This document shows, piece by piece, positions 5,501 to 30,185 of a stretch of 32,819 nucleotides of DNA. Location of the stretch: assembly GCA_017882585.1 (NCBI GenBank), contig JADGPF010000053.1, positions 1 through 32,819 on the forward strand. Reading direction: 5' to 3'. The position numbers were made by a program, and so were the translations under genes. This DNA is from Thermoleophilia bacterium (GTDB lineage Bacteria; Actinomycetota; Thermoleophilia; Miltoncostaeales; Miltoncostaeaceae). Under the pieces are notes generated by a model. It saw only the letters and a program-made list of their open reading frames with translations. It was not told the origin of the DNA and ran no database searches. Within the stretch, counting starts at the first letter, position 1, and each line of letters begins with the position of its first letter.

Positions 5501-5578
5501 GTGTTGGGGAGATCACCGCGCTGCGAGGGGTCACTGGCGCTCGCGTGGACGCATGCGTGCGCCTGGGGGCGCCGATGA
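5501..5578 (+). CDS. Putative 25-residue leader ORF coupled to the CoA ligase
   Basis: The only strong Shine-Dalgarno of this operon, AAGGAGG (5488-5494), stands six bases before GTG 5501. That start is in a different frame from the ligase. The frame runs 25 codons (MLGRSPRC...CAWGRR) and stops with TGA 5576-5578, overlapping the ligase ATG 5575 as ATGA. The arrangement fits a leader peptide that delivers ribosomes to the ligase start. The peptide has two Cys and two Trp but no amino-acid run suggesting attenuation. It could instead reflect a misplaced ligase start; no in-frame ATG, GTG or TTG start lies near the Shine-Dalgarno. Confidence 0.4.
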   Translation: MLGRSPRCEGSLALAWTHACAWGRR

Positions 5579-7119
5579 CCGCGCCGGTGCGCAATTCGGC
5601 CGCCGCCCGGACCGCCCACAACTTGGCGTGGATCCTCCTCGATCAGTCCGGGGAGCCGGCGGGCAAACTGCGCGCCCTTGTCACGGCGGAGGCCACCTGG
5701 ACGCTGGCGGACCTTCGCGACCGCACGGTGGGGATGGCCGCGGCGTTTACGGCACGCGGCATCGGTCGCCGCGACATCGTGCTCCTGCGCGCGCCGGACT
5801 CGCCCGAATGGATCGCTGCCTTCCTCGGGGCCGTCCGCTGTGGGGCGGTTGTGGCGCTGGCGGGCATGGGGATCACCGGCGAACGCCTGCGCGATGTCGC
5901 CGAGCGCGTCTCGCCGCGCCTGGTCATATCTGACGGGCCGCAGCTGCTGTCCGGCGTCGCGCAGCTCGAGCTGGCGGACGTGGCCGTCGGCGCGAGCCAC
6001 GGACGAGACGATCCCGGGATCTGTGCGGTCCGCCTCGACGACCCCTGCTACATGCTGCTGACCTCAGGTACGACGGGACCGTCGAAGTGGGCGCTGCATC
6101 GTCACCGCGACATTCCCGGATGTATCGCGACGTATGGGCGACGTGTCCTCAAGCTGCGGCCCGGCGACCTCGTGTGGTCGGTCGCCGCGCTGCCGACCAG
6201 CTACGGCCTGGGCAAGAGCATGTACTTCCCGCTCGGCATGGGTGCGGCGGCGTGGATCGAGTCGCACAGCCGCGATCCCGAGCGGCTCGAGATCGCGTGC
6301 CGCGATTTCGGCGTCAACGTGGTCGCCGGTGTGCCGACGTGGTGGGCGCGGTTGGCCCGACACGTGCGCGAGGGGCGCGTGGATCGGTCCGCATTCGCCG
6401 GAGTACGCTTAGCGGTGGCCGCGGGGGAACTCCTCGACGGGCGCGTCTGGGACGCGGTGGCCGAGACGACCGGGATGCGTATCGTGAACTCGCTGGGGTC
6501 CTCGGAGGCGACCAACCTCTACACCTCCGACGTCGTCGGCAGTCCTGCCGCGGGCCGCACAGGCTGGGTCGTGCCCGGATATCGGCTGCGCATCGCTCCG
6601 GTCGAGGGCGCACCACCGGGTGCAGGGGAACTGCTCGTGTCTGGGCCGACGGTGATGGCCGAGTACTTCGGCAACCCGGAGGCGACGGCGCACACGCTCA
6701 CCGACGGCTGGCTGCACACGGGCGATCTCGTCGAGTGGGTGCCCGACGGGCAGGTGCGTATCCTGGGTCGCGTCGGAGACCGCATCAAGGTCGGCGCGTC
6801 CTGGGTCGACCCGACCCGGGTGCGTGAGGCGCTCCTGGCCGACCCTGATGTCGCCGACGCGATCTGTGTGCCGGTAATCGACGATGATGGGGTCACCCGC
6901 CTTGTTGCGGCGGTTGCCACGCCGCGGCCCGGACCCGACCTCGAGGAGCGCCTGCGCGTGCGCTTGACCGCCTTGCCTGCGCCCGAACGCCCGCGTGCAC
7001 TACTGGTCGAAGCCGAGCTGCCGGTCACGGCCTCCGGCAAGGTCGACCGCACCGAGCTGAATGCCCGCGCACGCGCGGCACTTCGCAACCCAAACCAGAA
7101 GGTGATGCATGGCCACTGA
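5575..7119 (+). CDS. Benzoate-CoA-ligase-family AMP-forming acyl-CoA ligase
   Basis: The 514-residue protein is a complete class I adenylate-forming enzyme, activating a carboxylic acid via acyl-AMP to its CoA thioester. The phosphate loop TSGTTGPSK is at about 163-171, with Trp after the Lys where Gly is common. GVPTWWARLARH, GSSEATN, the hinge GRVGDRIKVGASWVDP and the adenylation lysine in TASGK (K489) are all present. The segments match the benzoate/cyclohexanecarboxylate-CoA ligase branch. It overlaps the thioesterase gene by 11 bp, and a BadH-like dehydrogenase follows, which favours an alicyclic or aromatic acid substrate. ATG 5575 is chosen for its coupling to the leader ORF; GTG 5545 is an in-frame alternative. 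Confidence 0.85.
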   Translation: MTAPVRNSAAARTAHNLAWILLDQSGEPAGKLRALVTAEATWTLADLRDRTVGMAAAFTARGIGRRDIVLLRAPDSPEWIAAFLGAVRCGAVVALAGMGITGERLRDVAERVSPRLVISDGPQLLSGVAQLELADVAVGASHGRDDPGICAVRLDDPCYMLLTSGTTGPSKWALHRHRDIPGCIATYGRRVLKLRPGDLVWSVAALPTSYGLGKSMYFPLGMGAAAWIESHSRDPERLEIACRDFGVNVVAGVPTWWARLARHVREGRVDRSAFAGVRLAVAAGELLDGRVWDAVAETTGMRIVNSLGSSEATNLYTSDVVGSPAAGRTGWVVPGYRLRIAPVEGAPPGAGELLVSGPTVMAEYFGNPEATAHTLTDGWLHTGDLVEWVPDGQVRILGRVGDRIKVGASWVDPTRVREALLADPDVADAICVPVIDDDGVTRLVAAVATPRPGPDLEERLRVRLTALPAPERPRALLVEAELPVTASGKVDRTELNARARAALRNPNQKVMHGH

Positions 7120-7531
7120 TGTGCTTGAGACCGCGGTCCTGGAGCGATGGAACGCCTGCGGGTACTACCAACTGGTCGGTATGCGCGTGGAGCGGGCCGA
7201 CGCCGAGGGAAGCCTGTTCCGGATCATGATCACCCCGGAGCACACCCAGTTGTACGGCACTGCACACGGCGGCATCCTGAGTGGGATGCTCGATGCCGCG
7301 ATGGCTCTGGCCCTGCTGGCCAAGATGCCCCTTGACGAGGGCTGCGCGACGATCGAGATGAAGGCCAACTTCACCGCGCCGGGCAATCCCGGGGAGCTGG
7401 TCGGCACCGGTGCGGTCCTGTCGATGGGCCGACGCATCGCGGTGGCTCGCGCCGATATCCGCGACGGCGACGGGCGGCTGGTCGCCAGCTCGCAAGGGAC
7501 GTTCATGCGCTTCAAGACGGGTGACGCATGA
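7109..7531 (+). CDS. PaaI-like hotdog-fold acyl-CoA thioesterase
   Basis: The protein has 140 residues, the usual length of single-domain hotdog thioesterases. The signature AHGGILSGMLDAAMALAL has H53-G54-G55 and D62 on the central helix, as in PaaI-type enzymes that hydrolyse aryl- or acyl-CoA esters, often to rescue CoA from dead-end intermediates. The C-terminal strands (IEMKANFTAP, RRIAVARADI, SSQGTFMRF) complete the fold. The start overlaps the ligase end by 11 bp and has AGAAGGTG upstream. Its stop overlaps the next start as ATGA, so ligase, thioesterase and dehydrogenase form one coupled operon. Confidence 0.85.
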   Translation: MATDVLETAVLERWNACGYYQLVGMRVERADAEGSLFRIMITPEHTQLYGTAHGGILSGMLDAAMALALLAKMPLDEGCATIEMKANFTAPGNPGELVGTGAVLSMGRRIAVARADIRDGDGRLVASSQGTFMRFKTGDA

Positions 7532-8286
7532 GCGAGCTCACGCGCATCGACGGCAAGGTCGCGATCGTCACCGGTGCCGCGGGCGGCATGGGTCAGGCGA
7601 TCGCACGGCTGCTGAGCGCGCGAGGAGCGTCGGTCGTGCTTACCGATCGGGATCCGGCGGTGCTCGCCATCGCCGCCGAGTTTGGTCCGGATGCGCTGGC
7701 GCTGACCCACGACGTCACGAGCGTCGAGGAGTCCACCTCGGTCATCGCAGAGGTGCGTGAGCGATTCGGGCGCCTGGACATCCTGGTCAACAACGCCGGC
7801 TGGGATCGGCCGAGCCTCTTTGCCGACTCGGACCCGGACGACTGGCTGCGGATCGTCCAGATCAACTACCTCGGTGTCGTCAACGGAAGCTACGCCGCCC
7901 TTCCATTGCTGCGGGACGCGCCGGAGGGTGGGGTAATCGTGTCGATCGCCTCCGACACCGCCCGGGTCGGCGGTTGGGGTGAGGCCGTCTACGCGGGCGC
8001 CAAGGCAGGGGTCGTCGCCTTCTCGAAGTCCCTGGCCCGCGAGGTGGCACGCGACCGGATCCGCGTCAATTGCGTCTCGCCGGCCGTCACCCAGACCGCC
8101 TTCCAGGATCGGCTCGCCGGCGATCCGGTCGGTGCGAAGGTCGTAGAAGGCGCGATCCGCGCAACCCCGATGCGCCGTGCCGCCGTGCCGGAGGAAATCG
8201 CCGAGGCGGTGGCGTTCATGGTCTCCCCTGCGGCCGGGTTCATCACCGGGCAGGCACTCTCCGTCAACGGTGGGGTCGTGATGTAA
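7528..8286 (+). CDS. Short-chain dehydrogenase resembling 2-hydroxycyclohexanecarboxyl-CoA dehydrogenase (BadH)
   Basis: The 252-residue protein has the classical SDR layout: TGAAGGMG cofactor motif (15-22), NNAG (88-91), catalytic S142, Y155 and K159, and a C-terminal FITGQALSVNGG. Beyond the generic motifs, VNNAGWD and IASDTARVGGWGEAVYAGAK closely follow the Rhodopseudomonas BadH sequence as I recall it. BadH oxidises 2-hydroxycyclohexane-1-carboxyl-CoA to the ketone. With the upstream CoA ligase this suggests a route for a cyclic carboxylic acid. Ring hydratase, acyl-CoA dehydrogenase and ring-opening hydrolase are not in the window, so the pathway is incomplete here and the substrate is inferred. 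Confidence 0.82.
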   Translation: MSELTRIDGKVAIVTGAAGGMGQAIARLLSARGASVVLTDRDPAVLAIAAEFGPDALALTHDVTSVEESTSVIAEVRERFGRLDILVNNAGWDRPSLFADSDPDDWLRIVQINYLGVVNGSYAALPLLRDAPEGGVIVSIASDTARVGGWGEAVYAGAKAGVVAFSKSLAREVARDRIRVNCVSPAVTQTAFQDRLAGDPVGAKVVEGAIRATPMRRAAVPEEIAEAVAFMVSPAAGFITGQALSVNGGVVM

Positions 8287-8293
8287 CCGGCCG

Positions 8294-9934
8294 TCAGTCG
8301 AGCGCCCTGCCGAGCTGCGCGGGGCGCCGTGGCGGCGTCACATGCACGAAGATCGCGATGCTGCGCACGTCGATGCGATCGGCGTGCGCGCCGGATGCCG
8401 TGATGGCTGCCTGGAGTCGATCGGCGGGCGGCCCTACCGGCGCGGCGAAGGCCGGATGCGGGTCCCGAGCGACCTGGGCGGCCATGTCCGGAAAGCGTCG
8501 CACGCCTGGGGAGCCGACAACCGCGATCGTGCCGTTGCTGGCGAACGCGATCGGGAACGCGAGCCAGTAGTTCGCATACAGCGAATGCACCCCCTCGCGC
8601 TGCAGGGCGACGACGACCGCCGGCATGTCTTGGGAGCGGACGGGAAGCCCGCCGACGTGCCCGGTTGTCTCGCCGCGGGCGTCGGCGGTGCGCATCGTGG
8701 CGATGCTCATCGCAGCGATGACGGCGACCAGTGCGAGCCCGACGGGCATGACGGCTCGTCCCGGTACCCGCGTCACGCCCCAGGCGAGCACCAGCGCAAG
8801 CATGGGGTATAGCGTGAACAGGTAGCGCGGTTCGCGCGTGTAGACGGTGAAGCTGGAAAGGCCGTATGGGACGGCAAAGAGGATGAACCCGGCGAGCACC
8901 GGGTCGATCGGGGCGCGGCGGGAGCTGCCCAGGGTCGCCAGGTCGACCAACCCACGCCAGCGCACTGCGATCGCCGCAGCGAGGAGCGCAAGCGCGGCGG
9001 CCACCACCAGCGCCTGCGGCAGCCAGCTGGCCGCCGGCGCCCCCGAAAACGGTCGCAGCGCGCCGAGGAACATGCCCAGGACCGGATGGACGAGCCCACT
9101 CAGCCGGGTCCCGACGGACCCCGTCGAGGTCCCGTTGCCCTGCGCCCACGGCGGGATCCAGCCATGTCGGACCTGATAGGCGATCGACGGTCCGTAGCCG
9201 AGGATGGCGGCGGCGATCCCGTAGGGCACCAGCCGCAGGAGCGATCCGCGTGATGAGCCAAGCGCCCACACCACGGCCGGCACGACGAGAAAGACCGTCA
9301 GGCCGCTCTCCCAAAGGCCGACGCCGACGCACAGGCCGAGGCCGCCGGCCACCCAGCGGCTGTGGCGCGAGGCCGGGTCGAGCCGGAGCGCGAGCAGGAG
9401 CGCACAGACGCCGATGGCCTGCGCGGCCATATACGCGCCGTGACTGTGGATGCCCTTGTAGATGTTGTAGTAGGGCCCGACGGCATAGAGCGCCGCGGCG
9501 AGCACGCCACCCCAGGCCGTGCCGGTCACGCGCCGTCCGAGGAACCCGACCACCAGGCATGTCAGACCGCACAGGGCGACCTGGACCAACCGCAACGTCG
9601 TGGGCGTACTGGGCAGGACCGCAAGCACACCCGCCTGCAGATATTGCTCGAGCGAGCCCATGTAGTTCGAGCCAGCCAAATAGGCGAATGACTGTCCGTT
9701 CAGGATGTCGTGCGCCATGACACCGGTGACGGCCTCGTCGGCGTCCAGGCGTCCGATCGTGGACGCGAGCGCCACCAGCCGGATCGCGACACACGCCGCG
9801 ATGGCCAGGACGAGGATCGCGGCCGGCCACGGCGTCCACCCACCCCGGCTGGCCCGAGCGGCCTCGCGACGGTCACTGCCGTGACGCCGGCGCGGGCGGA
9901 GGGGTCGGGTCGGGCGGCCCAGAAGACTGCTCAT
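8294..9934 (-). CDS. Polytopic membrane protein, GT-C glycosyltransferase-like
   Basis: From ATG 9934 this gives 546 residues. A basic N-terminus precedes the first helix (about 34-53). An acidic loop GRLDADEAVTGVMAHDIL follows, like the first-loop Asp/Glu motif of GT-C enzymes such as ArnT and protein mannosyltransferases, which take sugar from a polyprenyl-phosphate donor. About ten further helices lie up to about residue 430, then a soluble C-terminal domain. The acceptor is unknown; cell-envelope glycosylation is likely. A TACGCT box eight bases before ATG and no Shine-Dalgarno support this start; an in-frame ATG 10066 would overlap the upstream gene. The stop lies 7 bp from the convergent dehydrogenase stop. 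Confidence 0.75.
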   Translation of the reverse strand: MSSLLGRPTRPLRPRRRHGSDRREAARASRGGWTPWPAAILVLAIAACVAIRLVALASTIGRLDADEAVTGVMAHDILNGQSFAYLAGSNYMGSLEQYLQAGVLAVLPSTPTTLRLVQVALCGLTCLVVGFLGRRVTGTAWGGVLAAALYAVGPYYNIYKGIHSHGAYMAAQAIGVCALLLALRLDPASRHSRWVAGGLGLCVGVGLWESGLTVFLVVPAVVWALGSSRGSLLRLVPYGIAAAILGYGPSIAYQVRHGWIPPWAQGNGTSTGSVGTRLSGLVHPVLGMFLGALRPFSGAPAASWLPQALVVAAALALLAAAIAVRWRGLVDLATLGSSRRAPIDPVLAGFILFAVPYGLSSFTVYTREPRYLFTLYPMLALVLAWGVTRVPGRAVMPVGLALVAVIAAMSIATMRTADARGETTGHVGGLPVRSQDMPAVVVALQREGVHSLYANYWLAFPIAFASNGTIAVVGSPGVRRFPDMAAQVARDPHPAFAAPVGPPADRLQAAITASGAHADRIDVRSIAIFVHVTPPRRPAQLGRALD

Positions 9935-11953: not shown

Positions 11954-12844
11954 ATGGCACGCGAGAACGCAAGGGGCGACGTGGCAGAACACCGCATCAG
12001 CGTCGGCAGCATCCGGCTGGCGATCCGCGACACTGGCGCCGGCGATCCGGTGGTCATGCTGCACGGCTTTCCCGAGCTGTCCTACTCGTGGCGCTACCAA
12101 CTGCCGGCCCTCGCCCGGGCCGGGTACCGGGCCATCGCGCCTGATCTGCGCGGCTATGGCGCCTCTGATCGCCCGGCCACGGTAGACGCGTACGCGGTGC
12201 CTGCCCTGGTCGGGGACGTGGTGGGGCTGATCGATGCGCTCGGGTATGACCGCGTCCATCTCGTCGGCCACGACTGGGGCGGCGGCCTAGCATGGGCGAC
12301 CGCAGCGCTGCATCCGGACCGCGTGCGCTCGCTGGTGATCGCCAATGCCCCACATCCGGTGGCGTCCGCCGAGGCCCGTCGTGACGACCCGGCCCAGCGC
12401 GCCAAGAGCTGGTACATGCTCCTGTTCCAGTTCGTCGGTGTGGCAGAAAGCTGGCTCGCCGACAACGATTTCGCGAACCTGCGCGAGATGGTGTTCGACA
12501 ACGCGGCACCCGGAACGTTCTCGCCCGAGGACGTTCGGGTCTACCTCGATGCCTTTTCGCGTGACGGCGCTCTGACTGCGGCGCTCAATTACTACCGGGC
12601 GAACATGCCGGCGGCGGCCTGGCTGCGTGAGCCGCCCCAGCTGCCCCAGATCACCACGCCCACGATGGTGATCTGGGGTGAGGCCGACACATTCCTCGGC
12701 CTCGGCCTCCTCGAGCGCTCGGTCGCGAAGGTCCGCGGACCGGTGCGGGTGGAACGGCTTGCCGGTGTCAGCCACTGGGTGCAGCAGGAGGTGCCAGACG
12801 CGGTGAACGCGCTGCTGGTCGAGTGGCTGCGCTCGACCAGCTAA
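11954..12844 (+). CDS. Alpha/beta-hydrolase, epoxide hydrolase family
   Basis: The protein has 296 residues. The oxyanion motif HGFP is at 37-40. The nucleophile is Asp, in VGHDWGG (D107), which together with ring-opening Tyr candidates Y154 and Y214 separates soluble epoxide hydrolases from Ser esterases. The acid is probably D245 (WGEAD) and the base H274 (GVSHWVQQE). The family adds water to epoxides through an alkyl-enzyme ester; haloalkane dehalogenases are related but have different halide residues. A GGGGGG stretch (11945-11950) serves as ribosome binding site. It probably shares a transcript with the CapA-like gene, and its TAA abuts the convergent stop at 12845. Confidence 0.87.
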   Translation: MARENARGDVAEHRISVGSIRLAIRDTGAGDPVVMLHGFPELSYSWRYQLPALARAGYRAIAPDLRGYGASDRPATVDAYAVPALVGDVVGLIDALGYDRVHLVGHDWGGGLAWATAALHPDRVRSLVIANAPHPVASAEARRDDPAQRAKSWYMLLFQFVGVAESWLADNDFANLREMVFDNAAPGTFSPEDVRVYLDAFSRDGALTAALNYYRANMPAAAWLREPPQLPQITTPTMVIWGEADTFLGLGLLERSVAKVRGPVRVERLAGVSHWVQQEVPDAVNALLVEWLRSTS

Positions 12845-15256
12845 CTAGACGGCCGACTCCCGCAGCGCCTTTCGATCGAGCTTGCCCGACGGCAGCCGCG
12901 GCAGCGCGTCACGCGTGACGACCTCCCGGGGGGCCTTATACGGCGCCAAGTGGTGGGCCACATACCGGCGCAGATCACCGGCGAACCCGTCCGGCACCGG
13001 GCCGTCGACGGCGACCCATGCCACGACGCGCATGAGCCCTGCGGCGTCGGCGACCCCGCCGACGCCCGCCTCACGCACGTGCGGGTGTTCGAGCAGACAC
13101 GCCTCGACCTCCCGCGGACTGACCCAGCGGGCGTCGACCTTGAACAGATCGTCGACGCGCCCGACGTGCCGGTATCGCCCGCCCTCGAAGATCAGCACGT
13201 CGCCCATCCGGATCCACTCTCCGAAGACCAGCTCCCGTGTTGCGCTAGCGCGACGCCAGTACCCGGAGGTGTTGGAGGGGCTGCGGATCCAGAGGCGTCC
13301 GGGGGTGCCCTCTGCGACCTCGCGGCCCTCTGCATCGCGCAGGGCGATCTCGACGCCCGGCACCACCTGGCCGAGCCAGCCTGGCTGCGGCGCGCCCGCC
13401 CGTGTCGAGATCACCACGTTCGAACACTCCGAGCAGCCGAGTCCCTCGATCAGCGGAATCCCGAGCAGCTCAGCGAAGCCCGTGGCGATGCCCGCGGGCA
13501 GGCTGTCGCCGGATGAGACACACAGCCGCACGCTTGCCAGAGGCCGCTCCTGGGGATGCCGCCGGAGGTACTCCAGCAGCTGTGCCCAGAACGTCGGTAC
13601 CCCGGTCAACACCTGGATCTGGTGGCGTGCGGCGAGCTCGACGGTCGTTCGGGGATTCGGCCGGCTCGCATTGAGCACGGCCGTCGCCCCCGAACCGAGG
13701 ACGCGGAAGAACCCGTTGCCGAACCCCAGCGAGGTGAACAGCTTGGCGGCCGAATGGCACCGCTCGCCAGGCGCGAGCTCCAGGACATGCCTCGCGTATG
13801 TCTCGATTCCCGGCGACAGGTCCCGGTGCGCGTGCATCACTCCCTTCGGACGGCCCGTCGACCCCGAGGAATAGATGATGTACGCAAGATCCTCCGGGTG
13901 GACCGGGGCGCACGTCGGACCGCCGGCGCCGTCGGGGGCCGGCGGTCCGAGGACCGGCCAGCCGTGCGTCTCGCACTCGTCGTCGGCGATCACCAGCCGC
14001 GGTTCGCAGTCATCGAGGATCATCGCGACGCGATCCGGGGGGCTCGTCGGGTCCACCGGGACCGCGACCGCGCCCAGCCACGCGCAGCCGAGGAACGCGG
14101 CGACCCACGGGCGGCCATCGCGCAGTGCGATCGCGACCCGGTCGCCGCGGCGGGCGCCCGCGCGCGCGAGCATTCCGGCCGTATCCCGGGTCGCGGACCA
14201 GAGCGCGTCGTAGCTCGAGCTGCCCGCCGAGTCGATCACGGCGATCGCGGACCCGCGCCCCGCGGCGCGATGGCACCCGACCAGCGTGTGCACGAGGTTG
14301 GCGTGTGGGCCGACGCCGATGCCATGTGCGGCGGGTCCGGCGGGAGTGGCGATCACCAGCGCGTCGGCGAGGGCCGCAAACGCCTCATCGGGGACGCGCT
14401 CGGGTAACGCGAGAATCACGTCGGTGACCCCTGCCGCGGCGTACTCGGCGAGCCGGTCACGCACCTCGCCCGCGCTCCCGACCAGCCCGGTCGTGCGGAG
14501 CCAGCGCAGCAGGCGATCGGGCGAGGTGCCGAGGTGCGCCGCCTCGGCCGCCAACATACGCCGGCGTTCGTCGTCCGTCTGCCCGACCAGGGCAAAGGTG
14601 TAGAGCGCAACGTCGAGCGGCGGGCGTCCGGCGCCGCCGGCGGCGGCCCCGGCCACCGCGACCCGTGAGGCGACCTCGCCCGGGCTGCTCCACGCGGCGA
14701 TGATGCCGTCGGCGTGCCGGCCGGCATGACGGAGCAGCACGGGACCGTGGGCGGCGAGCCACACGGGCGGCCGACGGACGAGCGGTCGGTTCGGCGGGGT
14801 CGGCCGTCCGGCGATATCCGACCCCTCGGGGTGGCGCCACATCGCGTCCATGACCGCCAGCGCCCGGCGGACCCCGGCGGTGCGCTCGGCGGGCGTGCCG
14901 AACCGGACCCCGTATGCGGCATGCTCGGCCACATCGGACCCGGCACCGAGGCCCACGACGGTTCTGCCGCGGGCGATCGCGTCGACGACCGAGATCATCT
15001 TCGCGGCGACTTGTGGGGGGCGGTAGCTCGCCGACAGGACCGCGACCCCGAGGCGGACCCGCGTCGTGATCGTCGCCAGCGCCGCGAGCGTCGACAGCGC
15101 GTCGAAGGTCGCATCGGTCTTGACCCGCCCTGGCGACTGATAGTGGTCGTTGACCCAGAGGGCGTCGACGCCGGCGCGCTCGAGCAGCCCGGCGACGTCG
15201 CAGATGTCGTCCCAGGTCCCGCCGTATTGCGGAACGCGGACCCCGATGCGGGGCAT
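12845..15256 (-). CDS. Fusion of a luciferase-like (LLM) monooxygenase and a benzoate-CoA-ligase-family enzyme
   Basis: One uninterrupted frame encodes 803 residues. Residues 1-305 are a luciferase-like flavin/F420-dependent TIM barrel: MPRIGVRVPQYGG, ALWVNDHYQSPG, TRVRLGVAVLSASYRPPQ, GRTVVGLGAGSDVAE, PPVWLAAHGP and GSAGEVRDRLAEYAAAGVTDV. Residues about 310-803 are a complete adenylate-forming ligase: SSGSTGRPKGVMH loop (about 463-475), GVPTFWAQLL, VSSGDSLP, GLGCSECSN, GRVDDLFKVDARWVSP and PSGK with K792. The ligase half is a paralogue of the ligase at 5575-7119. The monooxygenase might oxidise the acid or CoA ester made by the other half. ATG 15256 is chosen; GTG 15268 would overlap the upstream stop as GTGA. 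No frameshift is needed, so this looks like a true fusion. Confidence 0.85.
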   Translation of the reverse strand: MPRIGVRVPQYGGTWDDICDVAGLLERAGVDALWVNDHYQSPGRVKTDATFDALSTLAALATITTRVRLGVAVLSASYRPPQVAAKMISVVDAIARGRTVVGLGAGSDVAEHAAYGVRFGTPAERTAGVRRALAVMDAMWRHPEGSDIAGRPTPPNRPLVRRPPVWLAAHGPVLLRHAGRHADGIIAAWSSPGEVASRVAVAGAAAGGAGRPPLDVALYTFALVGQTDDERRRMLAAEAAHLGTSPDRLLRWLRTTGLVGSAGEVRDRLAEYAAAGVTDVILALPERVPDEAFAALADALVIATPAGPAAHGIGVGPHANLVHTLVGCHRAAGRGSAIAVIDSAGSSSYDALWSATRDTAGMLARAGARRGDRVAIALRDGRPWVAAFLGCAWLGAVAVPVDPTSPPDRVAMILDDCEPRLVIADDECETHGWPVLGPPAPDGAGGPTCAPVHPEDLAYIIYSSGSTGRPKGVMHAHRDLSPGIETYARHVLELAPGERCHSAAKLFTSLGFGNGFFRVLGSGATAVLNASRPNPRTTVELAARHQIQVLTGVPTFWAQLLEYLRRHPQERPLASVRLCVSSGDSLPAGIATGFAELLGIPLIEGLGCSECSNVVISTRAGAPQPGWLGQVVPGVEIALRDAEGREVAEGTPGRLWIRSPSNTSGYWRRASATRELVFGEWIRMGDVLIFEGGRYRHVGRVDDLFKVDARWVSPREVEACLLEHPHVREAGVGGVADAAGLMRVVAWVAVDGPVPDGFAGDLRRYVAHHLAPYKAPREVVTRDALPRLPSGKLDRKALRESAV

Positions 15257-15264
15257 GGGTCCGG

Positions 15265-15939
15265 TCACGGGTTGCCGACGACGACGATCAGCTGGGCGGT
15301 CGGTGCGGCGGCCTGGAGCGCCGCCGAGGCGGGCGCCGGTGCGATGTCGGTGATCCCCAGATCCAGGCCGAGGCGCACCGCGATCCCCTGGTCGCCGTTG
15401 CGGTAGTAGATGATCTGCGGCACCGCAGGCGGGGTCGTGGCCGTCGACGTCGTCGGGGGCGGTACGGCGGTCGTGGTGTGCGTGGCCGAGCCGACCGTCG
15501 TGGTCGCAGTCGCCTGCGGCACCGTGGACGGAAGTGCCTGGGTCGGTACCAGGCTCGGCGGCAGCGTGACGTTGCCGGTCAGCGGGGTCGGGTACCCCTG
15601 CTGGACGATGCTGACGGCGATCTGGACCGCGACGCCCGAGGTCGTCCCGGCGTTGAGCACCGCGACCTTGATCTGCGAGCGCGGCGGCAACGGGACCGCC
15701 GGGGTCGTGCCGGTCGTCGTCGGGGCCGTGGTGACGGTCGCCGGCGCAGCCGTCGTCGGAAGGACGATCACGTTGCGGGTGCGCATGTTCGCCGGCACCG
15801 ACGGCGTGACCGTCTGGGGGTCCGAGCTCGAGCGGTGTTGCCAGCCGATCCAGAAGCCCACCAAAAGGCAGACGATCGCCAGTGCCGTGGTGGTGAGCTG
15901 GCCGGTCGTCGGGCGCCACGACATATCGGGTCGCTTCAT
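15265..15939 (-). CDS. LytR_C-domain envelope protein with Thr/Pro-rich linkers
   Basis: The protein has 224 residues. One transmembrane segment (about 16-33) follows a basic head, then a Thr/Ala/Pro-rich linker (about 40-88). The LytR_C domain begins at 89 with IKVAVLNAGTTSGVAVQIA and ends with IIYYRNGDQGIAVRLG and a final LIVVVGNP strand. Between its halves (about 125-174) there is an unusual Thr/Pro/Ala-rich insert. Stand-alone LytR_C proteins in actinobacteria are anchored and face the wall; their role is poorly known. The end lies next to or overlaps the start of the fusion gene, suggesting one transcript, though a functional link is not obvious. ATG 15924 is an alternative start. Confidence 0.75.
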   Translation of the reverse strand: MKRPDMSWRPTTGQLTTTALAIVCLLVGFWIGWQHRSSSDPQTVTPSVPANMRTRNVIVLPTTAAPATVTTAPTTTGTTPAVPLPPRSQIKVAVLNAGTTSGVAVQIAVSIVQQGYPTPLTGNVTLPPSLVPTQALPSTVPQATATTTVGSATHTTTAVPPPTTSTATTPPAVPQIIYYRNGDQGIAVRLGLDLGITDIAPAPASAALQAAAPTAQLIVVVGNP

Positions 15940-16187: not shown

Positions 16188-18728
16188 ATGCCAGTCAGCC
16201 TGCGTCCCACCTCGAACACGAGCGCCCCGCCCTTGCCTGCCGAGGCCCTGGCCGCTGCCCTTGAAGATCCTGCGGCCGTTTGGCCCGACGTCGAACTGCG
16301 CCCGCATCAGATCGAAGCGCTCGACGACCTGGCCTCGCGCCTCGCGCACGGGGTGCGCCGGACCTGGGTCGATGCGCCGACCGGATCGGGCAAGACGGTC
16401 ATGTTCTGCGCGTTGGCTGCCGCGCTTGACGGTTCGGCCTGCGTCCTGGTCCCACGGCGCAATCTCGCCGAGCAGACCATCGCCGGCTTCGCGCGCCACT
16501 TCCCCTCGGTGAAGGTGCACGAGGAGGGGCCGGATGCCATCGGGCAACCCGGAGTGGCGATCTGCACGTACCAGGCGGCGCTGCGCCATGCGGACCGCAT
16601 CCAATGGGAAGACCTGGACCTGTTGGTCTGCGATGAGGCCCATACGGCCCTCGGGGCCCAGACGCGGCTGATGCTGGATCGCGCGACCAGCGCGCTCATC
16701 GTCGGCTTCACCGCAACCGGCTCGACGACCACGGGGCACGTCGAGCAGATCTTCGGCCCGGTCGCCACCACGCTTGACCGCGCCTCGGCGATCGAGCGGG
16801 GGATCCTGTGTCCGCTGCGCTCCCTGCGGGTTGAGCGCGCGGTGGATCTTTCCGACGTTGCCCGGGTACGCGGGGACTTCGATCAGGGCAGCCTGGGTCG
16901 TGCCCTCGACCGCGCGTTGTGGCACCACGCCTGCGCCGAGGTATGGACCGAGCACTTCCAGCCGCTCGGGCTTGCCGGGGTCGCCTACACCGCGACGGTT
17001 GCCCAGGCGCACAATCTCGCCGACGAGCTCGCCGCGCGTGGGGTCAAAGCGGCCGCCGTGTCGGGCCAGACGCCGGGGCGCGAGCTGCAGATGATCCTGA
17101 AGAAGTTCGGCGAGGGCTACATCGACGTGCTGTGCAACGCGGATCTACTGACCGAGGGCTGGGACGAGACGCGCGCATCGGTCGTGATGCATCTGGCGCC
17201 GACCACCTCGGAGCGGGTCTTCGTCCAGCGCCTGGGCCGCGTCATGCGTCCGGCCCCGGACAAGGAAGCCGTGTCGGTGGAGTTCCTGCCAAAGGGCGAT
17301 CTGATGGGGGTCAAGACCAGCCACGATGTCTTCGGCGTGGGCTGGTACAAGCCGCTTGGCCGCGTTGCGGGTCCGCCGGACGCGGGCGACGAACGGGGCA
17401 AGCTCGCCCAGGCGGCGCGCCTGCTCGACGACCAGGCCGGTCACGTGTCCGAGCTGGTCAACCCGGGAGCCGACCCCGCGCAGATCGCGGCGGGCTTCCG
17501 CGACGGCGGTTGGCGCGAGGCCGACACGACCAAGCTGCGCGGGATCCTGATCGAGGAATGGATCGAAGCTGCGACGGCCGACGCGACCTGCATCGAGGTC
17601 GCCGAACGCGTGGCCGGCGGAATCCCTCCCGAGGGGGCCCTGGCCTGGTGGGGGCTGACGGGGGTGCTCGCCCGCAACGCGCGCGACGGCGTGGATCAGC
17701 CGATGTGGCGCGAGTGGGCGATGGTGCTTGTGGTGCAGCCGGATCTGCGCATGTGGCTCACCGACGACGCGCCGCGCAAGGTGCTCGACAACCTGCGCAT
17801 GACCGCCCGCGAGCGTCTGCGGGCCCTGTGGTACCACGCCGACCACGCCGGCAAGTGGGACCGGATCACCGCGCTGGAGCAGCTCGGCCGCTCCGGGGAT
17901 CGCCGCCGGCGCTGGTCCGCGCTCGATGAGGCGTCATCGTGGGCACCGGCATGGGCATGGGACGTGTCGCGGGGCCTGGCCGAGGCCCATCGCCCCGGGC
18001 GCAACCAGGAGGCCGCGCGCATCGCCGGCTGGGAGGCCCGGCACCTGATTTCGGCCGGCGGGGAGATCAACCTCATCGCGGGGTGGCTCCGGGCGGCCGG
18101 CGGGCCACCGCCCGACCCGATCGCCCCCGACGCCGATTCGGCGGCCACGCTGCGCCTCGGCCAGATCGCCCGTCTGACGGTCGTGCTCGGGCCCGGCGAT
18201 GTCCCGACGCGGCCCGAGCACGTTCGGCTGGCCGCCCGCGCGGCCGCCGCCGCCGGCGGATGGGCGCATCTGCGCGGGCTGCTGGACTCCCTGGATTTCA
18301 CGACACCCGATGCCCGCCGCGCGCTGCGGGCCGCCGTCGGCGCGACCCAGCCCAAGGCGTTGTTGTCCCGGCGTGGCTGGAACGCGTTGCGTACGCGGTT
18401 CCCACGGCTGCCGTCTGCCGAAGATATCGGCCTGGGCGAGGTGCAACGCCGACGCGAGGGCGCAGCGGACGACGGTGCCAAACCGCGTCGTCGCCGTCGG
18501 CGCCGCCTGCATGCGCCTGCCGCCGACAGCGCAGCCGGCGCGACAAGCGCGTCCGCGGAGAGCGCATCTTCAAATGGCGCGGCACCCGCAGACGCCCCAG
18601 CCGACGGAGCTGCGGCAAGCGGCAACCGCCGCCGCCGCCGCCGTCGTCGCCGCCCATCCCGCAGCGGAGCGGGCGCGGGCGGATCCGCGGCGGGCGACGG
18701 CGCCGCCCCGCCACCCTCCGGAGACTGA
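16188..18728 (+). CDS. SF2 DEAH-box helicase with large C-terminal domain and Arg-rich tail
   Basis: The protein has 846 residues. The helicase core is at about 35-370: Q-like RPHQ, Walker A APTGSGKT (63-70), DEAH (149-152), motif III TAT (175-177), then the second RecA domain with TEGWDE and motif VI QRLGRVMR (347-354). The layout resembles RadD/UvrB-like and restriction-type SF2 helicases that translocate on nucleic acid. Residues about 400-745 are helical, Trp-rich and unrecognised. The tail (about 745-846) is low complexity, with two Arg blocks (about 765, and nine Arg at 814-822) that should bind nucleic acid. No nuclease or methylase genes lie next to it, so a defence role is not supported. 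The substrate is unknown. Confidence 0.85.
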   Translation: MPVSLRPTSNTSAPPLPAEALAAALEDPAAVWPDVELRPHQIEALDDLASRLAHGVRRTWVDAPTGSGKTVMFCALAAALDGSACVLVPRRNLAEQTIAGFARHFPSVKVHEEGPDAIGQPGVAICTYQAALRHADRIQWEDLDLLVCDEAHTALGAQTRLMLDRATSALIVGFTATGSTTTGHVEQIFGPVATTLDRASAIERGILCPLRSLRVERAVDLSDVARVRGDFDQGSLGRALDRALWHHACAEVWTEHFQPLGLAGVAYTATVAQAHNLADELAARGVKAAAVSGQTPGRELQMILKKFGEGYIDVLCNADLLTEGWDETRASVVMHLAPTTSERVFVQRLGRVMRPAPDKEAVSVEFLPKGDLMGVKTSHDVFGVGWYKPLGRVAGPPDAGDERGKLAQAARLLDDQAGHVSELVNPGADPAQIAAGFRDGGWREADTTKLRGILIEEWIEAATADATCIEVAERVAGGIPPEGALAWWGLTGVLARNARDGVDQPMWREWAMVLVVQPDLRMWLTDDAPRKVLDNLRMTARERLRALWYHADHAGKWDRITALEQLGRSGDRRRRWSALDEASSWAPAWAWDVSRGLAEAHRPGRNQEAARIAGWEARHLISAGGEINLIAGWLRAAGGPPPDPIAPDADSAATLRLGQIARLTVVLGPGDVPTRPEHVRLAARAAAAAGGWAHLRGLLDSLDFTTPDARRALRAAVGATQPKALLSRRGWNALRTRFPRLPSAEDIGLGEVQRRREGAADDGAKPRRRRRRRLHAPAADSAAGATSASAESASSNGAAPADAPADGAAASGNRRRRRRRRRPSRSGAGAGGSAAGDGAAPPPSGD

Positions 18729-27416: not shown

Positions 27417-30185
27417 ATGGCAACACACGCACCGACTCACGCACACACCGACCACGGGCCCGGGCATCACGTCGAACCCAAGCCGCTGGGGTATTGGTGG
27501 AAGCGCGCGTTCGTGGCCACCGTCGTCGGGGTTGTCCTCGCGCTTGGGGTGACCTGGTTTGTCCGTTGGGCCTGGGGCTTCCACCCGCTGTGGAACGCCG
27601 GGGTCTACTGGACGATGATCTTCATCTTCGCCGGCATCGGCTTCATCATCGGGATCGGCTGTTTCGACTGGTGGTGGGACTACCTCCGCGGCCGGCGCGT
27701 CGGCTTCGAGGACCACTCGATGCACGGGGCCACGTCCTGGAAGGACTACCTGCGTCCGAACACGGACCACAAGGTCATCGGCATCCAGTACACGGTCCTG
27801 ACGTTCATCGCGTTTGTGATCGGTGGCCTCTACGCCGAGGGCGTGCGCGCCCAACTTGCCCAACCGGGTGAGCAGTTCGTCAACGGGCAGACCTACAACG
27901 GTCTGTTCAGCATGCACGCCACGATCATGATCTTCGGGTTCGTGATCCCGGTGTTTTCCGGGCTGGCGAACTACGTGCTGCCGCTCATGATCGGTGCCAA
28001 GGACATGGCGTTCCCGCGGCTGAACGCACTGTCGTTCTGGCTCTTGGTCGTCGCGGTCGCGCTGCTGGTGTTCGCACCGGCCTTCGGGGTCTTCACCTCG
28101 GGCTGGACCGCCTACCCTCCGCTTGCGCTCCAGGGCACGACGGGCACCACGATGTTCGAGATCGCCATCCAATTCGCCGGCGCGTCGACGATCGCCACCG
28201 CACTGAACTTCATGGTTACGATCGTCACCATGCGCGCGCCGGGCATGACCGTGTGGCGGATGCCGTTGCTGGTCTGGGCGAACGCCACCACCTCGGCCCT
28301 CGTCGTGTTCGGGACCCCGTTTATCGCCGGATCCCAGATCATGAGCCTGACCGACCGCGTGATGGGCACGAACTTCTTCAACGCCGCCAACGGTGGTGAC
28401 GTGCTGATGTACCAGCACGTGTTCTGGTTCTACTCGCATCCCGCGGTGTACATCATGATGTTGCCGGGCTTCGGGATCGTCTCCGAGGTCATCGCGACCT
28501 TCTCGCGAAAACCGATCTTCGGATACCGGGCCATCGCGTTCTCGACCGTCGCGATCGCCATCCTGGGCTTCGGGGTCTGGGCACACCACATGTTCGTGTC
28601 CGGCATGGCCTCGTGGATCCGTATCCCGATGATGATGACGACGGTCCTCATCGCGGTGCCGACCGGCATCAAGATCTTCTCCTGGCTCGGCACCATGTGG
28701 GGCGGCAAGATACACCTCAAGACGCCGATGCTCTTCGCGATGGGCTTCCTCGTGACGTTCACGATCGGTGGCCTGTCGGGGATCTACCTCGGCACGCTCA
28801 CGACGGACATCGCGACCCACTCGACCTACTTCATCGTCGCCCACATCCACTATGTGTTCTTCGGCGGGAGCGTGATGACCATCTTCGCCGGGACGTACTA
28901 CTGGTTCCCGAAGATGACCGGTCGGATGTACAACGAAACGCTCGGCAAATGGCATTTCTGGCTGACGTTCGTCGGGATGAACCTCACGTTCTTCCCGATG
29001 CACTGGCTCGGCACGCAGGGCATGCCGCGCCGCGTCGCCGACTACGCCCCGCGGTTTGCCAACGTGAACCTGTTCATCTCGATCGCGAGCCTGCTGATGG
29101 TCGCCGGCACGATCGTGTTCTTCTACAACATGATCTACTCGTGGGCGAAGGGCGCGAAGGCCCCCTGGAACCCCTGGCGCGGCCGCACCCTCGAGTGGAT
29201 GGTGTCCTCGCCGCCCAGCCTGTTCAACTTCGATCTCACCCCGCAGGTCGTCGGTGGTCCGTACCAGTACGGCATCCCCGGCGCGCGCCACGCGGTGGTC
29301 TTCGCGGGCCCCGAATTAGGCGGTGGCGAGCTCACCGAGACCGACAAGCGACTGGTACTGATCGTGGCCGACCAGGCCGTTGCATCGCCCGCGCTGATCG
29401 ACGACATCCGCCGGCGCAACGCCGAGGGGTACTGGCGCTTTACCTACGTCGTGCCCAGCACGGTCGACGACCACCGCGCGGCGGAGCGTCGCCTCCAAAC
29501 GGCGCTCGCGGTCCTCTCCGAGTCCGGCATTGACGCCAACGGCACCGTGATCGACGCACCGCCGATGCAGGTGATCGACAAGGTCATGCGTGAGGAAAAC
29601 GTCCACGAGATCATCCTCACCACGTTCCCGCTCGGGTCGTCGGCGTGGCTCGATCAGGACCTGGTCGACCGTGTCCGCAAGGCAACCGGGATCGGCGTGA
29701 CCCACGTCACCATCCTGCCGAGTGAGGCCCGCGCGACGGTGGCCTCCGAATCGGTGGCGAGAGTTGTGATCATCGCCAACTACGGCATCGACGACGTCGG
29801 CCTGGCCGCGTTGATCCAAAAGCGCGCCGACGAGCAGCCGATGAGCGCGATCGTGCTCTGCCCGCTGTCCCTGGAGGGTCCGTCGACCACGCCCGAGACC
29901 GACGCGGTCCGCGCCGAAGCATCCGGCCGCACGGCGACGCTGATCGCACGCTTGCAGGAGGCGGGCATCCAGACGCGCGGCGAGATCATCGACGGTTCGG
30001 TGACCGACGCCATCAAGGTGGCACGGACCGCGCACCACGCAAACACCGTCCTGCTTGCGACCCGGCCGGGTGATCGCATCGAGATCACCGAGGACATCAC
30101 CGCAGCGGCCGGGCAGATGAATCTCGAGCAAGTGACGACCAACGGGCAAACCTCGACGCCGTCGGGCGCCTCGGAGGGCCGATGA
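27417..30185 (+). CDS. ctaD: Cytochrome c oxidase subunit I (A2-type) fused to two C-terminal Usp-like domains
   Basis: The 922-residue protein reduces oxygen and pumps protons. The core (about 115-625) has all ligands: heme a H167 and H478, heme a3 H476, CuB H341, H390 and H391, and cross-linked Y345. The YSHPAVY motif replaces GHPEVY, marking an A2-type proton channel without the D-channel Glu. Before the core are a His-rich head (MATHAPTHAHTDHGPGHH) and two extra hydrophobic segments (about 30-50 and 62-84). After the usual NPWRGRTLEW...SPPSLFNF ending come two tandem alpha/beta domains: 644-770 (KRLVLIVADQ to THVTILP) and 780-900 (ARVVIIANYG to TVLLATRPG). They resemble universal stress proteins but lack the classic G-2x-G-9x-G(S/T) ATP motif. 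They should lie in the cytoplasm. The stop overlaps ctaE as ATGA. Confidence 0.92.
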   Translation: MATHAPTHAHTDHGPGHHVEPKPLGYWWKRAFVATVVGVVLALGVTWFVRWAWGFHPLWNAGVYWTMIFIFAGIGFIIGIGCFDWWWDYLRGRRVGFEDHSMHGATSWKDYLRPNTDHKVIGIQYTVLTFIAFVIGGLYAEGVRAQLAQPGEQFVNGQTYNGLFSMHATIMIFGFVIPVFSGLANYVLPLMIGAKDMAFPRLNALSFWLLVVAVALLVFAPAFGVFTSGWTAYPPLALQGTTGTTMFEIAIQFAGASTIATALNFMVTIVTMRAPGMTVWRMPLLVWANATTSALVVFGTPFIAGSQIMSLTDRVMGTNFFNAANGGDVLMYQHVFWFYSHPAVYIMMLPGFGIVSEVIATFSRKPIFGYRAIAFSTVAIAILGFGVWAHHMFVSGMASWIRIPMMMTTVLIAVPTGIKIFSWLGTMWGGKIHLKTPMLFAMGFLVTFTIGGLSGIYLGTLTTDIATHSTYFIVAHIHYVFFGGSVMTIFAGTYYWFPKMTGRMYNETLGKWHFWLTFVGMNLTFFPMHWLGTQGMPRRVADYAPRFANVNLFISIASLLMVAGTIVFFYNMIYSWAKGAKAPWNPWRGRTLEWMVSSPPSLFNFDLTPQVVGGPYQYGIPGARHAVVFAGPELGGGELTETDKRLVLIVADQAVASPALIDDIRRRNAEGYWRFTYVVPSTVDDHRAAERRLQTALAVLSESGIDANGTVIDAPPMQVIDKVMREENVHEIILTTFPLGSSAWLDQDLVDRVRKATGIGVTHVTILPSEARATVASESVARVVIIANYGIDDVGLAALIQKRADEQPMSAIVLCPLSLEGPSTTPETDAVRAEASGRTATLIARLQEAGIQTRGEIIDGSVTDAIKVARTAHHANTVLLATRPGDRIEITEDITAAAGQMNLEQVTTNGQTSTPSGASEGR

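Follow-up and report, generated by a model that had tools for sequence, protein, structure and literature searches.

The window, which is the whole stretch of 32,819 nucleotides analysed here, carries a gene that encodes a luciferase-like monooxygenase (LLM) domain and an adenylate-forming ligase in a single chain (Table 1). This gene starts with an ATG at 15256 and stops at 12845–12847 on the minus strand; the coordinates 12845–15256 given in the original prediction are correct, and the strand was absent from it. A gene for a membrane-anchored LytR_C-domain protein precedes the fusion, or the LLM gene alone in one genome (G007), at every helicase locus examined, and the close or overlapping arrangement of the LytR_C and fusion genes suggests that they are probably co-transcribed. 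The alpha/beta hydrolase gene on the other side carries HGFP and GHDWGG motifs of the Asp-nucleophile, epoxide-hydrolase/haloalkane-dehalogenase type. In eight genera it is convergent with the fusion or the LLM gene, either adjoining it or separated from it by a few genes, and its product is a possible functional partner of the fusion protein. Genes further out are, by appearance, MoxR/DUF58/VWA-like. Together with the LytR_C and helicase genes, these surroundings look like a housekeeping island and point to no pathway.

Table 1. Positions in the window of the fusion gene, its domains and motifs, and the neighbouring genes.
Feature	Position	Strand	Basis
Fusion gene, LLM domain and adenylate-forming ligase, 803 aa	12845..15256	minus	Pfam, relatives, AlphaFold
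LLM TIM-barrel domain, residues 1–302	14351..15256	minus	PF00296 10–278; AF2 model of residues 1–303
N36-D37-H38, end of second barrel strand	15143..15151	minus	aligned with 'TDH' of Mer
Linker, residues 303–318, disordered, length varies among relatives	14303..14350	minus	pLDDT, dN vs dS
Ligase N-terminal core, residues 319–701	13154..14302	minus	PF00501; best PDB matches 2v7b and 4eat
P-loop YSSGSTGRPKG, residues 462–472	13841..13873	minus	motif; conservation in 25 fusions
Acid-pocket motif TSLGFGN, residues 508–514 (benzoate-CoA ligases [FH]AYGLGN)	13715..13735	minus	alignment
Acid-pocket motif GLGCSECSNV, residues 605–614 (BadA GIGSTEMLHI; H333 -> N613)	13415..13444	minus	alignment
Ligase C-terminal domain, hinge D702 to 803	12848..13153	minus	PF13193 716–792
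Catalytic K792	12881–12883	minus	invariant in aligned fusions
Membrane-anchored LytR_C-domain protein gene, upstream, 8 nt before fusion	15265..15924	minus	PF13399
Divergent helicase gene, marks conserved locus	16188..18728	plus	locus comparison
Convergent alpha/beta hydrolase gene, HGFP and GHDWGG	11954..12844	plus	motifs, neighbourhood

The domain content of the protein was examined with Pfam. The N-terminal part matched Bac_luciferase (PF00296, residues 10–278) with 134.5 bits against a cut-off of 27.9, and thus reached the gathering score of the LLM superfamily over the TIM-barrel domain. The C-terminal part matched AMP-binding (PF00501, residues 330–667, 249.8 bits) and AMP-binding_C (PF13193, residues 716–792, 53.3 bits), both above cut-off. 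The ligase has all three hallmarks of adenylate-forming (ANL) enzymes, namely the P-loop, the hinge (GRVDDLFKV, residues 699–707) and the C-terminal catalytic lysine. Residues S463–G468, P470 and K471 of the P-loop, the key hinge residues and K792 were invariant in 25 aligned fusions. The full-length AlphaFold model, built from a 25-sequence alignment, had a mean pLDDT of 83.8 and a pTM of 0.57, and showed the barrel and the ligase as ordered bodies flanking a disordered stretch (residues 303–312) with pLDDT below 50. Because a fold search with this whole model returned only ligases among its matches, the LLM domain was then modelled alone (AF2, residues 1–303), which gave a pLDDT of 94.3 and a pTM of 0.92. 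Thus, Pfam, the invariant motifs and the model agree with the earlier claim of one chain holding a complete LLM barrel and a complete ligase with P-loop, hinge and K792, and both domains of the fused protein are complete and look active.

The reality of the join was assessed in 42 genomes of the host family, for which we tallied the state of the junction. The junction was read through in 34 of them, and both domains lay in one open frame in 30; contig ends cut the gene in G003, G012, G017 and G032, yet the frame spans the junction there. The junction fell outside contig coverage in G024 and G160, which were excluded from the fused or separate call, and the LLM and the ligase were encoded by separate genes in G007, G009 and G018. 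The fused relatives were 48–76% identical to the window protein. In close pairs, both domains showed dN/dS of 0.05–0.34, whereas for the linker most pairs gave a dN near or above the dS; both domains are thus under purifying selection and the linker is nearly neutral. Ala, Pro, Gly and Thr are abundant in the linker, whose length varies widely among relatives. An assembly or frameshift artefact that joined two genes, to which the three relatives with separate genes might be taken to point, is practically excluded, as is chance, by the 34 family genomes with junction-spanning frames, two of which are assemblies of one and of three contigs, and by the natural-looking domain selection and linker variation. 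The join is genuine and family-wide. The separate-gene homologues that the original prediction had considered as a possible objection do exist, in 3 of 42 genomes; the sequencing error it had envisaged beside them, however, does not account for the read-through. Three of the 42 family genomes had no copy of the protein: G002, which is 99% complete, and G015 and G023, which are less complete. The protein is therefore not essential.

Of the 12 genera sampled from the family, 10 had fused forms, and in the other two, g5 and g7, the genes were separate. In g7 they are adjacent and overlap by 4 nt (GTGA in G009, ATGA in G018), and this pair sits at two unrelated genomic places, the LLM-ligase pairing alone being kept. 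In g5 (G007) the LLM gene occupies the usual locus and the ligase gene lies beyond the helicase, with three genes between the two. A tree of both domains placed the fused and the separate-gene rows on opposite sides of one branch, with weak support (60/78). The simplest account is a single fusion of coupled genes, though fission is also possible: within one actinobacterial family, two neighbouring genes with coupled translation were most likely joined. We found no full-length fused relative outside the family at E ≤ 1e-60 among 399 genomes of the class (42 of them from the family), no fused relative outside it at E ≤ 1e-100 among 396 genomes of the phylum, and, in a plasmid search, no record covering 80% of the fusion protein. 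Other phyla were covered by a non-exhaustive single-sequence scan of genome contigs, which returned one relative, from a Lake Erken bin labelled 'uncultured actinobacterium' (Actinomycetota). The original prediction presented the layout as unfamiliar, and in the literature searched we likewise found no precedent for an LLM-ligase fusion, which is apparently an undescribed domain architecture assembled from two well-known enzyme types. The host family consists mostly of uncultured actinobacteria, and the presence of the protein in nearly all of its many small genomes suggests that it has a useful function. Two genomes, G013 (C111, C71) and G155 (C11, C91), carry two fusion copies each, in assemblies with 5–7% estimated contamination; the second copy in G013 lies in a different neighbourhood.

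The closest relatives of the ligase half, by sequence and by fold, are the benzoate-CoA ligases (TIGR02262; BadA 4eat/6m2o, BxBclM 2v7b, AuaEII 4wv3), with which it shares the full core and the C-terminal domain. In contrast to them, the fusion carries an LLM domain and stays under the TIGR02262 cut-off (344.6 vs 375.25 bits). The benzoate pocket of BadA is built from Y228, G327, S328, T329, H333 and I334 (PMC7277991). In the alignment these residues correspond to L510, G607, C608, S609, N613 and V614 of the fusion, so that the ligase does not have the benzoate pocket of BadA; L510, C608, S609 and N613, which stand in place of Y228, S328, T329 and H333, are held in nearly all relatives. Throughout the family, fused and separate copies alike carry TSLGFGN, SGD and G[LF]GCSExSN, apart from deviations at one residue each (position 510 is F in two, 508 is A in g7 and 584 is E in one), whereas most outgroup ligases have [FH]AYGLGN, A[AG]E and GIGSTExLHI instead. 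The pocket is thus nearly identical whether the ligase gene is fused, overlapping or apart, which suggests that a single specific acid, other than benzoate, is probably the substrate, and that this acid probably stayed the same when the genes fused. Benzoate is an unlikely substrate because the family cut-off is missed and the benzoate-site residues have given way to different, strongly conserved ones. The earlier label of a benzoate-CoA-ligase-family enzyme therefore holds for the nearest relative and fails for the family cut-off and the benzoate site. The kinship of the ligase makes CoA the likely acceptor and a CoA thioester its likely product.

Gene fusions point to functional partners, and we consider it quite probable that the LLM and ligase domains serve one pathway. 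As an overall explanation we lean, by somewhat more than even confidence, towards a bifunctional enzyme that joins two pathway steps, one that activates an acid and one that makes a redox change to its carbon skeleton. This reading is supported by the fusion itself, by the g7 pair found at two places, and by a neighbouring pair within a CoA-type catabolic cluster of another family of the class. In the genome concerned (G169, L062 7306–9834), an LLM gene is immediately followed by a benzoate-CoA-ligase-type gene, and the cluster around this pair also contains thiolase, CoA-transferase, methylmalonyl-CoA-mutase-like and amidohydrolase genes. G169 was rejected as a fused case outside the family, as the apparent fusion comes from reading through the stop between two neighbouring genes; it is an independent case of LLM-ligase pairing, though its LLM is only 24% alike. 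In the bifunctional enzyme, the ligase would convert one carboxylic acid with ATP to an acyl-adenylate and then to a thioester, most likely of CoA, the acid probably being an aryl or other planar or bulky acid and not benzoate. The LLM would use F420, or FMNH2 with O2, for its redox step on this skeleton. That step would either precede the activation and yield the acid, or follow it with the acyl-CoA as substrate.

Which cofactor the LLM half might use was considered from its sequence, its fold and the gene content of the host genomes. The N36-D37-H38 triplet was invariant in 28 LLM sequences and lies at the position where both F420- and FMN-type LLMs keep an active-site D/E-H. The F420-dependent LLMs (Mer, FGD, Adf; TIGR03560/03619/03621) are the closest sequence relatives, sharing the TIM barrel and the N/T-D-H motif, whereas the fusion carries a C-terminal ligase and reaches none of their subfamily cut-offs. 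If the LLM is of this type, which we rate as a real possibility somewhat short of an even chance, the ligase would make the acyl-CoA, and the LLM would move hydride between F420 and the thioester, or an alcohol or imine on it. The sequence matches agree with such an order, Mer scoring 71.9 bits against at most 34.7 for FMN enzymes and the NCBIfam F420 subfamilies up to 116.1 bits, but every F420 subfamily cut-off shown was missed (231.4 for the best-scoring TIGR03560). The F420-dependent enzymes Mer, Adf and FGD were among the top structural matches of the LLM model, and genus g1 has F420 biosynthesis genes. Against it, the fusion is intact in seven genomes (G014, G012, G005, G016, G026, G006 and G021; 92–99% complete) in which F420 biosynthesis genes were not found, G014 being 99% complete in one contig. 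The oxidation named in the original prediction is not fixed, since F420-type members of the superfamily can oxidise or reduce.

The FMN-dependent LLMs (SsuD, SfnG, luciferase) resemble the domain in fold, SsuD being the first structural match and SfnG ranking high, and differ from it by a weaker sequence kinship; the structural matches are tied between FMN and F420 enzymes. An LLM of the FMN type would work in the manner of bacterial luciferase or of a two-component monooxygenase, with a separate reductase supplying FMNH2 for the oxidation of an aldehyde or the insertion of oxygen, and the ligase would then activate the acid product; the epoxide-hydrolase-like enzyme encoded next to the gene may process an oxygenated intermediate. 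This order is conceivable though doubtful in our view. Besides the SsuD and SfnG matches, it is favoured by the presence of the convergent hydrolase gene near the fusion in eight genera and by the seven genomes in which F420 genes were not found, each of which keeps 4–16 LLM genes. The nearer sequence kinship to F420 enzymes stands against it. Furthermore, the same seven genomes keep F420H2-quinone-reductase-like genes (PF04075), whose products should need F420, and in the three-contig genome G025 (C3, L098) the F420 biosynthesis cluster lies on a separate contig of 46.6 kb. Because of these two observations, the missing F420 genes were dropped as proof of FMN; the absence in relatives may be an assembly or replicon loss, the 46.6-kb contig being possibly a separate replicon. 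LLM domains of NRPS/PKS systems (TIGR04020, MupA/Atu3671 type) likewise combine an LLM with adenylate-forming chemistry in one system; an LLM of the NRPS type was rejected, as the TIGR04020 score was 41.6 against 244.45 bits and Pfam detected no carrier or condensation domain in the fusion.

How closely the two activities are coupled was considered from the linker and from the separate-gene relatives. The original prediction had proposed channelling, which finds no support here because the linker is free in length and sequence, the whole model (pTM 0.57) gives no confident domain arrangement, and homologues exist as separate genes. These observations fit a loose tether with shared expression better than channelling, and the fusion would mainly set stoichiometry and proximity through this flexible tether; a dedicated tunnel finds no support. 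The same freely varying linker and lack of a confident arrangement, together with the g5 genes that lie three genes apart, would also agree with tethering or co-expression alone, in which the two enzymes act in related metabolism and pass no intermediate between them. We regard this as unlikely, as the g7 pair moves together with its 4-nt overlap and LLM-ligase adjacency recurs in another family, and we keep to the two-step bifunctional enzyme as the favoured reading.

The fusion ties an LLM without an assigned role, from a class that is very abundant in actinobacteria, to a ligase that can be screened by ATP-PPi exchange, so that screening of ligase substrates offers a practical approach to the function of such LLMs. 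It is conceivable, if on present evidence improbable, that the family as a whole uses a bifunctional enzyme both to activate an unrecognised carboxylic acid and to perform a flavin- or F420-dependent redox step on the skeleton of that acid; if true, an undescribed catabolic or biosynthetic route would be defined in aquatic actinobacteria.

Other genes in the window were also noted. Three overlapping genes at 5545–8286 on the plus strand encode a benzoate-CoA-ligase-like enzyme, a 4HBT thioesterase and an SDR. This ligase is distant from that of the fusion (36%) and also has N at the position of BadA H333. Pathway inference from this operon was dropped, as it lies beside the fusion only in genus g1. 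An ORF of 493 aa at 8294–9775 on the minus strand, with a weak glycosyltransferase (PMT_2) match, is not conserved beside the fusion in relatives. At 27417–30185 on the plus strand, a 922-aa ORF for cytochrome oxidase subunit I matches PF00115 over residues 121–558 only, and its last ~320 residues resemble a universal-stress-like domain, with a weak Usp match (E 0.046). Each of the eight family relatives tested keeps this tail, at 40–75% identity, and further matches within the class are weaker.
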